A stretch of 44,710 nucleotides of DNA, taken from positions 1-44,710 of the forward strand of contig CAIMSU010000252.1 of NCBI GenBank assembly GCA_903844155.1. The letters are read 5' to 3'. The notes under the pieces were generated by a model. The model saw only the letters and a program-made list of their open reading frames with translations. It was not told the DNA's origin and did not search any database. This document shows positions 12,434 to 16,328 of the stretch, piece by piece. A program made the position numbers and the translations under genes. Numbering within the stretch: the stretch's first letter is position 1; every line of letters starts with the position of its first letter. The stretch is from an uncultured Pseudomonadota bacterium (GTDB lineage Bacteria > Myxococcota_A > UBA796 > SXON01).

Positions 12434-13363
12434 CTACGCGGGCCCGCCGACCTTGGCGACGATCGCCTCTGTCGCTGTCCAAAGCTTCGCCGCGAGCGCC
12501 ATGTCCTTCCCGAACGCCGAGGACTCCGCGACGTTGCAGTCCTGCATGTACTGCCCGGTGATCCCGGCCGCGCCCGGGTGCACCGCGGCCCAGACCTCGG
12601 TTGCAGCGCCTTCGCCCGGCGTTTTCAGGAACAGCGGCCCCGAGACGAGGATGCCGACGCGCTCCATCGTCCCCATGTGCCGGCCGAGGTTGGTCGCGAT
12701 GACGCCGGGGTGGACGGCGTTGACGGTCTTCTTCGTCCCGCCCAGCCGCCGCGCCAGCTCCCGAGCGAACAGCAGGTTCGCCAGCTTGGACTGGCCGTAG
12801 TTCTTCCACGCCGAGTAATGTAGCTCGCCCGTCAGGTTGTCGAGCTCGATCCCGGTCGCCGGCGCATTCTTGTGGGCGCCGCTGGAGAGGATCACGATGC
12901 GGCCGTCGTCCGCGACCTGGTCGACGAGACCGGTGACGAACAGGAAGTGGCCGATGTGGTTGGTGAAGAACTGCTTTTCGTAGCCGTGCAGCTTCTCCAG
13001 CTTCGGGAGCGCCATGATGCCCGCGTTGGCGATGAGCGCGTCGATGCGGACGCCCAACGCGCGCACGCTGGCGACGGAGGCACGCACGCTGTCGGGCTCG
13101 CCAAGCTCAAGCGCGATCGGGATGGTCTTGCCCCCGAGCGGCGCCAGGGCTTCCCTGGCTTTTTCGACGGTCCGGGCGGTGCCGATGACGGTCGCGCCGC
13201 GCATGGTGAGGACGCGAGCGGCCTCCAGCCCGAGCCCCGAGTTCGAACCGGTGATCAGCACGTGGCGACCGGTGAGATCGAGGCCGCTGGTGAGCGCCTC
13301 TGCGGTGGTGGAGGCGCCGAACCCGCTGGGGCCGTTCTTCGAGAGCATGGACATGAGCGACAT
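12434..13363 (-). CDS. SDR-family oxidoreductase
   Basis: The 309-residue protein is a retinol-dehydrogenase/WWOX-like short-chain dehydrogenase. It has TGSNSGLG at 38-45, NAG at 113-115, the catalytic serine at 160-161 in ILSSGA, and YGQSK giving Tyr189 and Lys193, so the active site is complete. HPGVIATNLGRH follows as the usual PG motif. NADP preference is plausible from Ala-Arg after strand 2, but is not proven. The substrate is unknown. It converges with glpD (21 bases between stops), and the start lies 61 bases from the transporter stop, with the repeated hairpin element in that gap. Confidence 0.88.
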   Translation of the reverse strand: MSLMSMLSKNGPSGFGASTTAEALTSGLDLTGRHVLITGSNSGLGLEAARVLTMRGATVIGTARTVEKAREALAPLGGKTIPIALELGEPDSVRASVASVRALGVRIDALIANAGIMALPKLEKLHGYEKQFFTNHIGHFLFVTGLVDQVADDGRIVILSSGAHKNAPATGIELDNLTGELHYSAWKNYGQSKLANLLFARELARRLGGTKKTVNAVHPGVIATNLGRHMGTMERVGILVSGPLFLKTPGEGAATEVWAAVHPGAAGITGQYMQDCNVAESSAFGKDMALAAKLWTATEAIVAKVGGPA

Positions 13364-13386: not shown

Positions 13387-13435
13387 CTCAGAAACGCCCT
13401 ACGCGATTCTGAGCAGTGGCCAAATTATGTCCGGG
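13387..13435. repeat. Dispersed hairpin element, solo copy
   Basis: A 27-base hairpin (CTCAGA 13387-13392, TCTGAG 13408-13413, with an inner CGC/GCG pair) followed by a TGTCCGGGT tail matches the two copies at 16071 and 16200. One base of the hairpin differs (position 13407), and the spacer before the TGTCCGGGT tail has diverged more. Its tail overlaps the transporter stop codon (13425-13427). Confidence 0.8.
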
Positions 13436-14666
13436 TCGAGGTCGATGCGACGTTGCGAAAGGTTAGGGCCACGGCCGAGAAAGCGAGGACACAGGCCAGC
13501 GCGAGGTGCAGCGGGTAGCCCAGCCATTGGGCCGAGGCCCCGCTGGCGATCGCCGCGATCCCCTCCGCCACCAGCACCGTCGACGCCTGAGTCGTGTAGT
13601 CGGACGCCGCCCGGCCCGGCCGGCATCGCGTCATCATCTCGGTGAACAACGACGTCGTCGCCAGGCCGCTCGTCGCATGCTCCACCACCAGCGCGACCAG
13701 GAGGAGATCGCGCGCCCCCGGCCCGCTCGGATGAAGGCTGACGGCGACCCAGAGCAGCAGCGCGGCCGCCTGCAACAGCGCAAAGATCGGCAGCGCATGC
13801 CGGATCCGTGTCGTCAGCCACCCGCCCGCCACCGAGCCGAGCATCGCCGCCCCCGAGCCAAGCGTCCCGACCAGCCACCCGATGTCGCCGATGCTGTAGC
13901 CGTAGTCGACGAGCATGGGCTTGAGGCTGCCGGCGCCGAAGGACACGCCGAGCTTGTAGACCACCAGGACGGCGAACCAGGACGCCATGCCGGGCTCGCG
14001 AAAAAACGGGGTTGAGCGCGGTGAGATGGGCGCGGGTGTGGGTTCGACGGCACGGGCAGGCCGAAGCGGCCCCGACACCAGCAACGGGATGGTCGTGGCG
14101 ACGAGGGCGAGCGCGAGGACCCCCACTGCCGCAGCCCAGCCGTACCCGTCCAGAACGGTGAGCAGCCACCCACCGCCGATGACCATACCGAGCCGATAGC
14201 CGGCGACCTGCGCCCCGTTTCCGAGGCCGAGGGCTGAGGGCTCCAGCGCCTCGACCGTCATCGCGTCTGTCGGGATGTCCTGCGTCGCCGAGATGAGGTT
14301 GGAGAGGAGGACGAGCGTAAACACAGGAAGAGCGGCGGTTTTCGGGTCGAGGCCAGTGCCGACGAGGAGGAGCGCGACGGCGGCAGCCTGAAAACAAAGC
14401 ACCGAGACCCGTCGCGCGGCCGGGTTGGCCAGCCGAGGATGATTGAACAGCGGCGCCCAGACCAGCTTGAGGATCCACGGTAGCGCGAGCAGATTCGTGA
14501 GTGAGATCGTGACCAATGACGACCCCGCCTGGCGCATCAGCACGGGGATGCACTGGTTGAAGAAGCCGAAGGGCAGGCCCTGCGCGACGTACAGGGACGT
14601 CAGGACGGCGAGGCGGCTGGCCGTGGACCGGGCCGAGGGTGGCGTGGCGACTGGTGCGGTGGACAT
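13425..14666 (-). CDS. MFS transporter, AmpG/PAT-like
   Basis: The 413-residue integral inner-membrane protein has about twelve hydrophobic segments. Near the start VAQGLPFGFFNQCIPVLMR matches the AmpG/acetyl-CoA-transporter (PAT) branch of the major facilitator superfamily, as does the ATQDIPTDAMTVEAL block of helix 4. AmpG imports anhydromuropeptides; whether this copy does so or exports another compound is unknown. It is transcribed away from the TetR-HD gene, with a 30-bp perfect palindrome between them, so repression by that regulator and induction by a ligand is the simplest reading. The frame 13399-14775 on the same strand is its shadow. Confidence 0.85.
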   Translation of the reverse strand: MSTAPVATPPSARSTASRLAVLTSLYVAQGLPFGFFNQCIPVLMRQAGSSLVTISLTNLLALPWILKLVWAPLFNHPRLANPAARRVSVLCFQAAAVALLLVGTGLDPKTAALPVFTLVLLSNLISATQDIPTDAMTVEALEPSALGLGNGAQVAGYRLGMVIGGGWLLTVLDGYGWAAAVGVLALALVATTIPLLVSGPLRPARAVEPTPAPISPRSTPFFREPGMASWFAVLVVYKLGVSFGAGSLKPMLVDYGYSIGDIGWLVGTLGSGAAMLGSVAGGWLTTRIRHALPIFALLQAAALLLWVAVSLHPSGPGARDLLLVALVVEHATSGLATTSLFTEMMTRCRPGRAASDYTTQASTVLVAEGIAAIASGASAQWLGYPLHLALACVLAFSAVALTFRNVASTSTRT

Positions 14667-14719
14667 GCGGGAAACGTAGCTGCGGCGGGCGCGGCGGGGG
14701 GCTGGTCGAGGATGCTAGA

Positions 14720-14749
14720 TAATGTTGGTCGATATATCGACCAACATTA
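14720..14749. promoter_or_regulatory. Perfect 30-bp palindromic operator
   Basis: Each half-site reads TAATGTTGGTCGATA from the outer end to the axis, and all 15 base pairs are complementary. The site is also much richer in A+T than the flanking DNA. It lies 53 bases upstream of the transporter start and 58 bases upstream of the regulator start in the divergent intergenic region, the classical position for a TetR operator that controls both genes. Confidence 0.85.
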
Positions 14750-14807
14750 CCGACACGATCACTTCCTGAGCACAACGTGCGCTAAGCTTCCCCCAGCAGG
14801 AGCCCCG

Positions 14808-16058
14808 ATGACCCGCCGACCGAACACCACCGAACGCCGTGTGGCCATCGCCGACGCGATGGTCCGCCTCCTCGCCCGCCATGGGGTCGACGGGGCGACG
14901 ATGCAGGCCCTGGCGCGAGAAACGGGCCTGACACAGGGCCTTTTGCACTACCACTACGCGTCCAAGGACGAGATCGTCCTCGCGGCTGTCGACCGCCTCG
15001 CCGCCGGGATCGAGGCGCGCCTCCCCGCCAACGCCGGGACCTACCCGCTCGGCGCGTTGCTTCAGGCCCTGCTCGACGCCGGGAGCGCGGACGAGGAAGC
15101 CCTGCGCGCCTGGCTCGCCGTGGGTGACGCTGCGCAGCGGGACGAGCCGATCCGGCAAGCGTGGGCGGCGGCGCTGGCGCGGCTGCGGGCGAGGGTGGCC
15201 TCCGCCAGGGACGCCGAGCGCCCGCACGAGGCCCGTCAGCCGGACCGGCTGGCGCTCGCCGGGTTCGTGGTCGCGGCGGTGGAGGGGGTATGGCGGGTTG
15301 GCGTGCTTGCTCCAGGGGTTCTTCCGGTCGGGACCGCGGCGGGCACGTTGGCGAGGATCCTGCAGACGACCCTCCCCGCGCCCGTCGCCCGTCCCGCGTC
15401 CCCGCCCGTCGCCCGTCCACCCGCCGTCGAGGTCGCCATGCCCCTGCGCGCCCGCGATCGACGCTGGCTCGACCACCTCGTCGCGCGGTCGCCCATCCCC
15501 CTGCCGGCCTCGGTCTGGCAGATTGTCGCCGGCGCATACACCAGCCCCGACCGGCACTACCACACGCTCGAACACCTCGCCGAGCTGGCCGACCGCTACG
15601 CCGAGGTCGCTGCCGGCCCGGGCTGGCAGGATCCGCGCGCCGTCTGGCTCGCCCTCCTCTTCCACGACGTCGTGTACGCCGTTGGCACCGCGCCCGGCGA
15701 GAACGAGCGTCGCAGCGCCGCCATGCTCCGGGCCCTCCTCCCCGACACGGACGGCGCCGCCGAGATCATCGAGGCCACCGCCGATCACGGTGCGGCGCGT
15801 ACCCCCGTCCACGTGTCCGCCGCCGACCTCGCCCACTTCCTCGACGCGGACCTCTCCATCCTCGGCGCCTCGCCCGCCCGCTACGCCCGCTACGAGCGGC
15901 AGATCGCGGCGGAGTACGTGCCGTTCGTGGGGCAGAAGGCCTACGATATCGGCCGAAGCGCGTTCCTGGCGCGCATGGCTGCGACGCCCTCGCTCCTCCG
16001 CTCCGAGCTCTTCCGCACCAAATTCGGCCCCTCCGCCCGCAGGAATCTCGCGTCCTGA
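14808..16058 (+). CDS. TetR regulator fused to HD-type phosphohydrolase
   Basis: The 416-residue protein has two parts. Residues 1-188 are a TetR repressor: helix-turn-helix at about 28-50 (DGATMQALARETGLTQGLLHYHY) and a helical ligand domain. Residues 189-208 are a Pro/Ala/Val linker with an internal in-frame repeat. Residues 211-416 match the full length of COG4339 HD-superfamily proteins: HYHTLEH (250-256), FHD (285-287), ENE (298-300), ADH (325-327) and FLDADLS (344-350), so the metal ligands look complete. The ATG at 14808 follows an AGGAG (14799-14803) at 4 bases. An internal ATG at residue 211 could make the HD domain alone. The two parts are known separately; the fusion and any link of nucleotide or phosphate cleavage to repression are inferences. 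Confidence 0.85.
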   Translation: MTRRPNTTERRVAIADAMVRLLARHGVDGATMQALARETGLTQGLLHYHYASKDEIVLAAVDRLAAGIEARLPANAGTYPLGALLQALLDAGSADEEALRAWLAVGDAAQRDEPIRQAWAAALARLRARVASARDAERPHEARQPDRLALAGFVVAAVEGVWRVGVLAPGVLPVGTAAGTLARILQTTLPAPVARPASPPVARPPAVEVAMPLRARDRRWLDHLVARSPIPLPASVWQIVAGAYTSPDRHYHTLEHLAELADRYAEVAAGPGWQDPRAVWLALLFHDVVYAVGTAPGENERRSAAMLRALLPDTDGAAEIIEATADHGAARTPVHVSAADLAHFLDADLSILGASPARYARYERQIAAEYVPFVGQKAYDIGRSAFLARMAATPSLLRSELFRTKFGPSARRNLAS

Positions 16059-16070
16059 CCGCCCCCCGTC

Positions 16071-16199
16071 TCAGAAACGCCCTACGCGAATCTGAGCCCT
16101 GGTCAAAAACTGTCCGGGTGCCGGTGCCGACGGGCGCTGAGAATTCGAGGCTTGCGGCTAATAATCGCGCGGTCGGCGCCGCTGCATGGTCACGCCGGT
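16071..16199. repeat. Tandem hairpin element, unit 1
   Basis: The 129-bp unit begins with the 27-base CTCAGA..TCTGAG hairpin, then CCCTGGTCAAAAACTGTCC and a GTGCCGGTGCCG tail. Middle sequence differs between units, and the last third (GGCTAATAATCGCGCGGTC) is shared again. It starts 13 bases after the TetR-HD stop and could end its transcript. Confidence 0.9.
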
Positions 16200-16328
16200 C
16201 TCAGAAACGCCCTACGCGAATCTGAGCCCTGGTCAAAAACTGTCCGGGTGCCGGTGCCGGATGGCGCGAAAAATACTAGGTTTACGGCTAATAATCGCGC
16301 GGTCGACGCCCCTGCATGGTCGCGCCGC
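16200..16328. repeat. Tandem hairpin element, unit 2
   Basis: The second unit is in the same orientation as unit 1 and the first 60 bases are identical, while the middle 26 bases are different and AT-rich (GCGAAAAATACTAGGTTTAC). It ends 22 bases before fmt. The AT-rich middle plus TAATAAT could supply a promoter for fmt, but no matching -35 box was found. Confidence 0.9.

Follow-up and report, generated by a model that had tools for sequence, protein, structure and literature searches.

Background

Repressor-enzyme fusions are already known. PutA of enteric bacteria holds a proline dehydrogenase and a DNA-binding domain; it is both repressor and enzyme, and its binding is confined to the spacer that separates putA from putP, the divergent transporter gene (PMC8249747). 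NadR and BirA, which are listed among the trigger enzymes (PMC8249747), likewise join a transcription factor to an enzyme, in their case one of cofactor metabolism. Among HD-type enzymes, AcpH is an acyl carrier protein phosphodiesterase that releases 4'-phosphopantetheine (PMC8557913).

Here we describe a gene from a lineage of Myxococcota, found in a window of 44,710 nucleotides (the whole stretch of DNA that was analysed), in which a TetR-type repressor is fused to an HD hydrolase resembling cyclic-nucleotide phosphodiesterases (PDEs). Its domain content is that of a trigger enzyme, with repressor and enzyme domains in one polypeptide as in PutA. The locus is also laid out as that of PutA is, with the repressor-enzyme gene divergent from a transporter gene and, in the window, one palindrome between the two. 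Unlike the fusion, PutA has another DNA-binding fold and another enzyme, and its substrate and membrane switch are known, whereas NadR and BirA combine non-TetR DNA-binding domains with an adenylyltransferase/kinase or a ligase rather than an HD hydrolase. In the open-licence literature we found no fusion of a TetR repressor with a PDE-like HD hydrolase and nothing specific on TetR proteins fused to enzymes, and we rate the combination as a new variant of such fusions. Our main reading, to which we assign a probability of roughly 0.6, is that the protein works as both repressor and enzyme in the manner of trigger enzymes, is PutA-like and of single origin, and controls itself and the transporter, with an HD half linked to CoA or adenine nucleotides.

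Table 1. Features of the fusion locus and related operons. Coordinates are positions in the window.
Feature	Coordinates	Strand	Length	Basis
TetR-HD fusion gene	14808..16058	+	416 aa	One uninterrupted open frame
TetR/BetI-type repressor half, aa ~1-188	14808..15371	+		PF00440, PF13977; structural matches
Pro/Ala-rich linker, aa 189-210	15372..15437	+		Model confidence; alignment
COG4339-type, PDE-like HD hydrolase half, aa ~211-416	15438..16055	+		Alignment with 19 homologues; PDE-type fold
Perfect palindrome, predicted operator; core TTGGTCGATATATCGACCAA at 14725-14744	14720..14749	.	30 bp	Comparative
Divergent MFS transporter, AmpG/RhtX/acetyl-CoA-transporter-like	13425..14666	-	413 aa	PF13000, PF07690
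SDR-family oxidoreductase	12434..13363	-		PF00106; 61 bp downstream of the transporter, same strand
TetR-MFS-CoaD-MBL operons in other genomes (L170, L172, L173, L180, L181, L196, L199)				

Domain architecture of the fusion protein

Both domains of a TetR repressor were recognised in the N-terminal half. TetR_N (PF00440) matched residues 15-60 with 44.3 bits against a Pfam cut-off of 24, and the BetI-type C-terminal domain TetR_C_6 (PF13977) matched residues 83-189 with 30.9 bits against a cut-off of 27. The top structural matches were TetR regulators, with Foldseek TM values (target) of 0.7-0.8, and the fusion displays the features by which the TetR family is recognised: a helix-turn-helix domain, an all-helical ligand-binding domain, and a palindromic predicted operator next to its own gene. 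The profile of the BetI choline repressor (TIGR03384) reached 50.9 bits, far below its equivalog cut-off of 201.3; thus, we rejected an identity with BetI and consider this half a BetI-like TetR protein.

These results agree with the preliminary description of the locus, which had placed a complete TetR domain (residues 1-188) and an HD domain of COG4339 length with intact metal ligands in a single uninterrupted frame. The span that it gave, 14666-16058, is correct at its end and not at its start, since 14666 is the start codon of the divergent transporter and the fusion begins at 14808. An alternative ATG at 14712 would open a longer frame of 448 aa; the start at 14808 is the conserved one, the motif M-x-R-P-x-N-T being kept in relatives. 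In the predicted model of the full-length protein (mean pLDDT 87.5, pTM 0.54), the halves are joined by a short, disordered linker in which residues 194-202 fall below a pLDDT of 50. The HD half starts at Met211, and GAGG stands ahead of the corresponding ATG (15438), which makes internal initiation at this codon possible.

We take the HD half to belong to COG4339, a family name carried over from the preliminary description rather than obtained from a COG profile. Its alignment with standalone COG4339-type proteins spans the full length, and it has kept all residues that are invariant in 19 homologues (R249, H252, H256, H286, D287, N299, E300 and S303, and further T324, D346, D348, R383, R411 and N413), along with each of the COG4339 motifs RxYHxxxH, HD, NExxSA, T, DxD and RxN. 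Among the four fusions known to us (see below), the only motif change is a replacement of the tyrosine of RxYHxxxH in G241. The Pfam HD family PF01966 gave 11.6-15 bits, which does not reach its gathering cut-off of 22.

The predicted model of the HD half (mean pLDDT 92.6) can be overlaid on the catalytic domains of cyclic-nucleotide PDEs with a Z of about 16 over 206 of 209 residues; the Foldseek E-values for these matches are weak. The class I enzymes PDE2, PDE5 and PDE10 share the predicted fold and a similar layout of H-x3-H, HD and a later D, but they are only 12-16% identical to the HD half, and a shared fold does not show a shared substrate. No PDE family of Pfam matched the 19 COG4339 members. 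The nearest solved structures by sequence profile are YedJ-type HD proteins. AcpH is alike in being an HD-family phosphodiesterase of phosphopantetheine chemistry, and it provides no more than a functional lead for COG4339; the Pfam family ACP_PD matched none of the 19 members at E-values up to 1, for which reason we rejected the HD half as AcpH.

COG4339 proteins are widespread, usually standalone and without a Pfam family of their own, and are often annotated as 'N-methyl-D-aspartate receptor NMDAR2C subunit'; our search of open-licence papers found none on this family. Apart from TetR, the HD domain is fused to GNAT, CoaD, CoaE, and a small uncharacterised domain. The latter (around ITTDEGPFAEDVFW) was seen repeatedly, either fused to the HD gene or next to it, and also beside a TetR gene (L059 6354-7304, L046 5819-6172, L020 985-1371, L133 and L134), and it had no Pfam match in the two proteins tried. 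We also observed an HD gene directly after a 2H-phosphoesterase-like gene of the 2'-5' RNA ligase type in Xanthomonas arboricola (L069 3252-4699), and one ahead of an RNA ligase gene in Rhodococcus phage NiceHouse (L240).

Conservation and origin of the fusion

The same fusion is present in three other genomes (G269, G091 and G241), making a total of four from two families of the order. G269, a congener, displays the same fusion, divergent transporter, flanking genes and gene order; its fusion gene is divided between two contig ends, which overlap exactly. G091 and G241, whose records are Deltaproteobacteria bacterium UBA2385 and a Myxococcota MAG, belong to another family of the same order. 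Both carry the whole fusion gene on one contig, with linkers shorter than that of the window fusion and without an adjoining transporter of the window's MFS family. The preliminary description had proposed that conservation be checked in homologues, and that a stop codon at the linker in these homologues, leaving two separate genes, would mark the fusion as a sequencing or assembly error. The frame turned out to be uninterrupted in four genomes from independent assemblies, and two-gene arrangements were confined to more distant relatives. Judged from these sequences, the fusion is real and not an artefact, and each half groups by ancestry.

In the phylogenies, the four fused TetR halves formed one clade (bootstrap/SH-aLRT 90/87), and the four fused HD halves formed another together with one standalone HD protein from G260 (100/98). 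This standalone protein begins with MPL at the position that matches Met211 of the fusion. Its placement inside the clade of fused HD halves is explained most simply by one fusion event, with the TetR half lost later in G260.

A profile search detected 49 HD loci among 377 Myxococcota genomes. In 12 of these, the HD gene has a TetR gene of the window fusion's clade as its fusion partner or neighbour: besides the four fusions, there are six pairs of divergent genes and two operons with both genes on one strand. In the G309 operon, a 4-bp GTGA contains both the stop of TetR and the start of HD, and in G328 the genes of TetR, a HIT-type protein (called from an HxHxH-like motif only) and HD follow in succession and overlap. 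The TetR proteins of the six divergent pairs form a clade apart from the fused ones (100/99), indicating that the partnership of TetR and HD recurs on different branches. The separate TetR and HD genes of more distant relatives look like the pre-fusion state in these comparisons.

The predicted operator

A perfect 30-bp palindrome had been reported between the fusion and the transporter gene, and it is exact: the site is identical to its own reverse complement over its whole length. The distance from it to the start codon is 58 bp on the side of the fusion and 53 bp on the side of the divergent transporter. A rough calculation with 4^-15 gives about 0.008 palindromes of this kind as the chance expectation for 8.1 Mb. 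The pattern TTGGT-N6-ACCAA was found upstream of 32 of the 41 genes of the TetR clade, compared to 21 of 328 control genes (sites up to 150 bp upstream, matching at 9 or more of the 10 positions; the controls came from the same loci, some of them sharing the same intergenic region). Together these observations support the palindrome as the predicted operator of the fusion's TetR half.

The fused genes carry an N10 form of this site. The window and G269 have TTGGT-N10-ACCAA, G241 has CTGGT-N10-ACCAA, which can also be read with N6, and G091 has TAGGT-N10-ACCTA. Compared to the sites of standalone genes, the half-site is retained and the spacer has 4 additional bp, perhaps because of another dimer geometry or the binding of two dimers. 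When no mismatch is allowed, the window genome (G000) and G269 each contain a single extended site, in both cases at the fusion locus, and looser matches in the window genome were no commoner than those of a backward control. Two congeners that possess an orthologous transporter (67-70% identical) without the fusion have no operator-like site nearby. The uniqueness of the exact site and its absence from these congeners suggest that the fusion protein probably acts locally, regulating its own gene and that of the transporter. Regulation of coaD by the fusion in the window genome was rejected, since that genome has no exact operator outside this locus. No match to a sigma-70 promoter was found within the intergenic region.

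Divergent transporter and neighbouring genes

The divergent transporter matched Acatn (PF13000; 40.3 bits, cut-off 23.7) and also PF07690. Its assignment as an AmpG muropeptide transporter failed, with 160 bits for TIGR00901 against a subfamily cut-off of 350. The copy adjoining the fusion in G269 is 66% identical to that of the window, and outside the genus the best matches in the genomes searched were operonic copies of G115 and G102. On these matches, the fusion-adjacent transporter belongs to the same MFS group as those of the TetR-MFS-CoaD-MBL operons described below. The SDR gene possibly forms one transcription unit with the transporter; its homologues include one that is 84% identical in G269 and one beside a TetR gene of the family in G095. 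A dispersed repeat (CTCAGAAACGCCCTACGCGAATCTGAGCCC...) occurs on both sides of the locus (13387-13416, 16070-16099 and 16200-16229), with more than 20 similar stretches across the genome and weak stem-loop potential (z -1.6).

Probable links to CoA and phosphopantetheine chemistry

Gene context provided insights into the possible substrate of the HD half. In the myxococcal genome G152 (L137 2828-4574), a COG4339 HD domain is fused to CoaD directly behind CoaE. Meanwhile, on Variovorax plasmids (L142 3413-5145) the HD domain is fused to a CoaE-like kinase that barely exceeds the CoaE cut-off (65.7 vs 65.55 bits), followed by coaD with a 4-bp overlap. The standalone members of the TetR clade head TetR-MFS-CoaD-MBL operons with 4-bp overlaps in many Myxococcota families, and reduced forms occur as TetR-CoaD-MBL, TetR-MBL and one TetR-MBL-HIT. 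In each of the five operon genomes tested, the operon encodes a second CoaD in addition to the housekeeping one; genomes with TetR-HD have one CoaD. The operonic MBL protein resembles cyclic-nucleotide phosphodiesterases (PF23023 Apyc1, 53.6 bits, cut-off 50). MBL and HD were never found together near a TetR of the fusion's clade, suggesting that one may take the place of the other.

A single CoaD is encoded in the window genome, on another contig, so that the link to CoA is indirect there. Across Myxococcota, plasmids and phages, which our neighbourhood survey covered, most of the COG4339 genes examined are not near CoA genes, and the context of the plasmid and phage HD genes is mixed, including RNA ligase, YaaA, and a CoA pyrophosphatase two genes away. 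In the open-licence literature we found nothing specific on a TetR regulator of coaD, on an HD domain fused to dephospho-CoA kinase or on HD-Pnk. Collectively, the CoaD and CoaE fusions and the TetR-transporter-CoaD operons make a link to CoA or phosphopantetheine likely but unproven. Our best guess from gene context is that the HD half is a phosphohydrolase of CoA, phosphopantetheine or a related adenine nucleotide. The preliminary description had spoken of a generic phosphorylated ligand; a ligand tied to CoA/phosphopantetheine or another nucleotide is more likely in view of this context.

Proposed mechanism and alternatives

Based on these findings, we propose that a dimer of the TetR half, or two such dimers, would occupy the palindrome and thereby repress both the fusion gene and the divergent transporter. 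A small ligand in the TetR pocket would lift this repression, upon which transporter and hydrolase would rise together. The HD half, as a PDE-like metal phosphohydrolase, would then act on the ligand metabolite or a close one, most likely a CoA- or phosphopantetheine-derived or other adenine-nucleotide compound. Such a protein would have arisen once, by the joining of two adjacent co-regulated genes like those that overlap by stop and start codon in relatives.

Two co-regulated genes can, however, fuse without any allosteric coupling. A stop codon may simply have been lost, leaving an HD half that works on the general nucleotide pool and whose catalysis has no effect on the TetR half, and we give this explanation nearly an even chance. 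It agrees with the existence of separate, co-regulated TetR/HD pairs, some of which overlap, with the short, variable and disordered linker, and with the descendant G260, which keeps HD without TetR. The retention of the fusion in two families with all active-site residues counts against it, although simple co-expression still fits.

The opposite view is that of the preliminary description, in which the substrate of the HD half is the TetR ligand itself and the protein resets its own induction. The alternation of two phosphohydrolase folds, HD and MBL, as partners of the same TetR clade fits enzymes that remove a signal, but it fits equally well any shared pathway step, and we consider this version doubtful. 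PDE and HD folds bind nucleotides, so the HD half could also be a non-catalytic ligand-binding domain that aids nucleotide sensing by the TetR half; this is unlikely, as none of the four fusions has lost any of the invariant residues, among which are the predicted metal ligands and general acid. An assembly or sequencing artefact joining two genes, to which the division of the G269 gene over two contig ends might point, is exceedingly improbable, because those ends overlap exactly and four assemblies agree, two of them from another family with the whole gene on one contig.

The PutA-like repressor-enzyme that we favour has implications beyond this locus. The TetR, CoaD and CoaE fusions and the TetR-MFS-CoaD operons lead to a concrete, testable guess at the substrate of COG4339, and the defined operator of 20-30 bp offers a means to seek the ligand to which this TetR clade, present across Myxococcota, would respond. 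We tentatively extend this to the possibility that the COG4339 HD proteins include an unrecognised enzyme of CoA/4'-phosphopantetheine turnover, and that the TetR clade is the dedicated sensor of this pathway in Myxococcota, with a transporter, a second CoaD and alternative phosphohydrolases under it. If this were true, the fusion would make the sensor and the hydrolase of the pathway one molecule.
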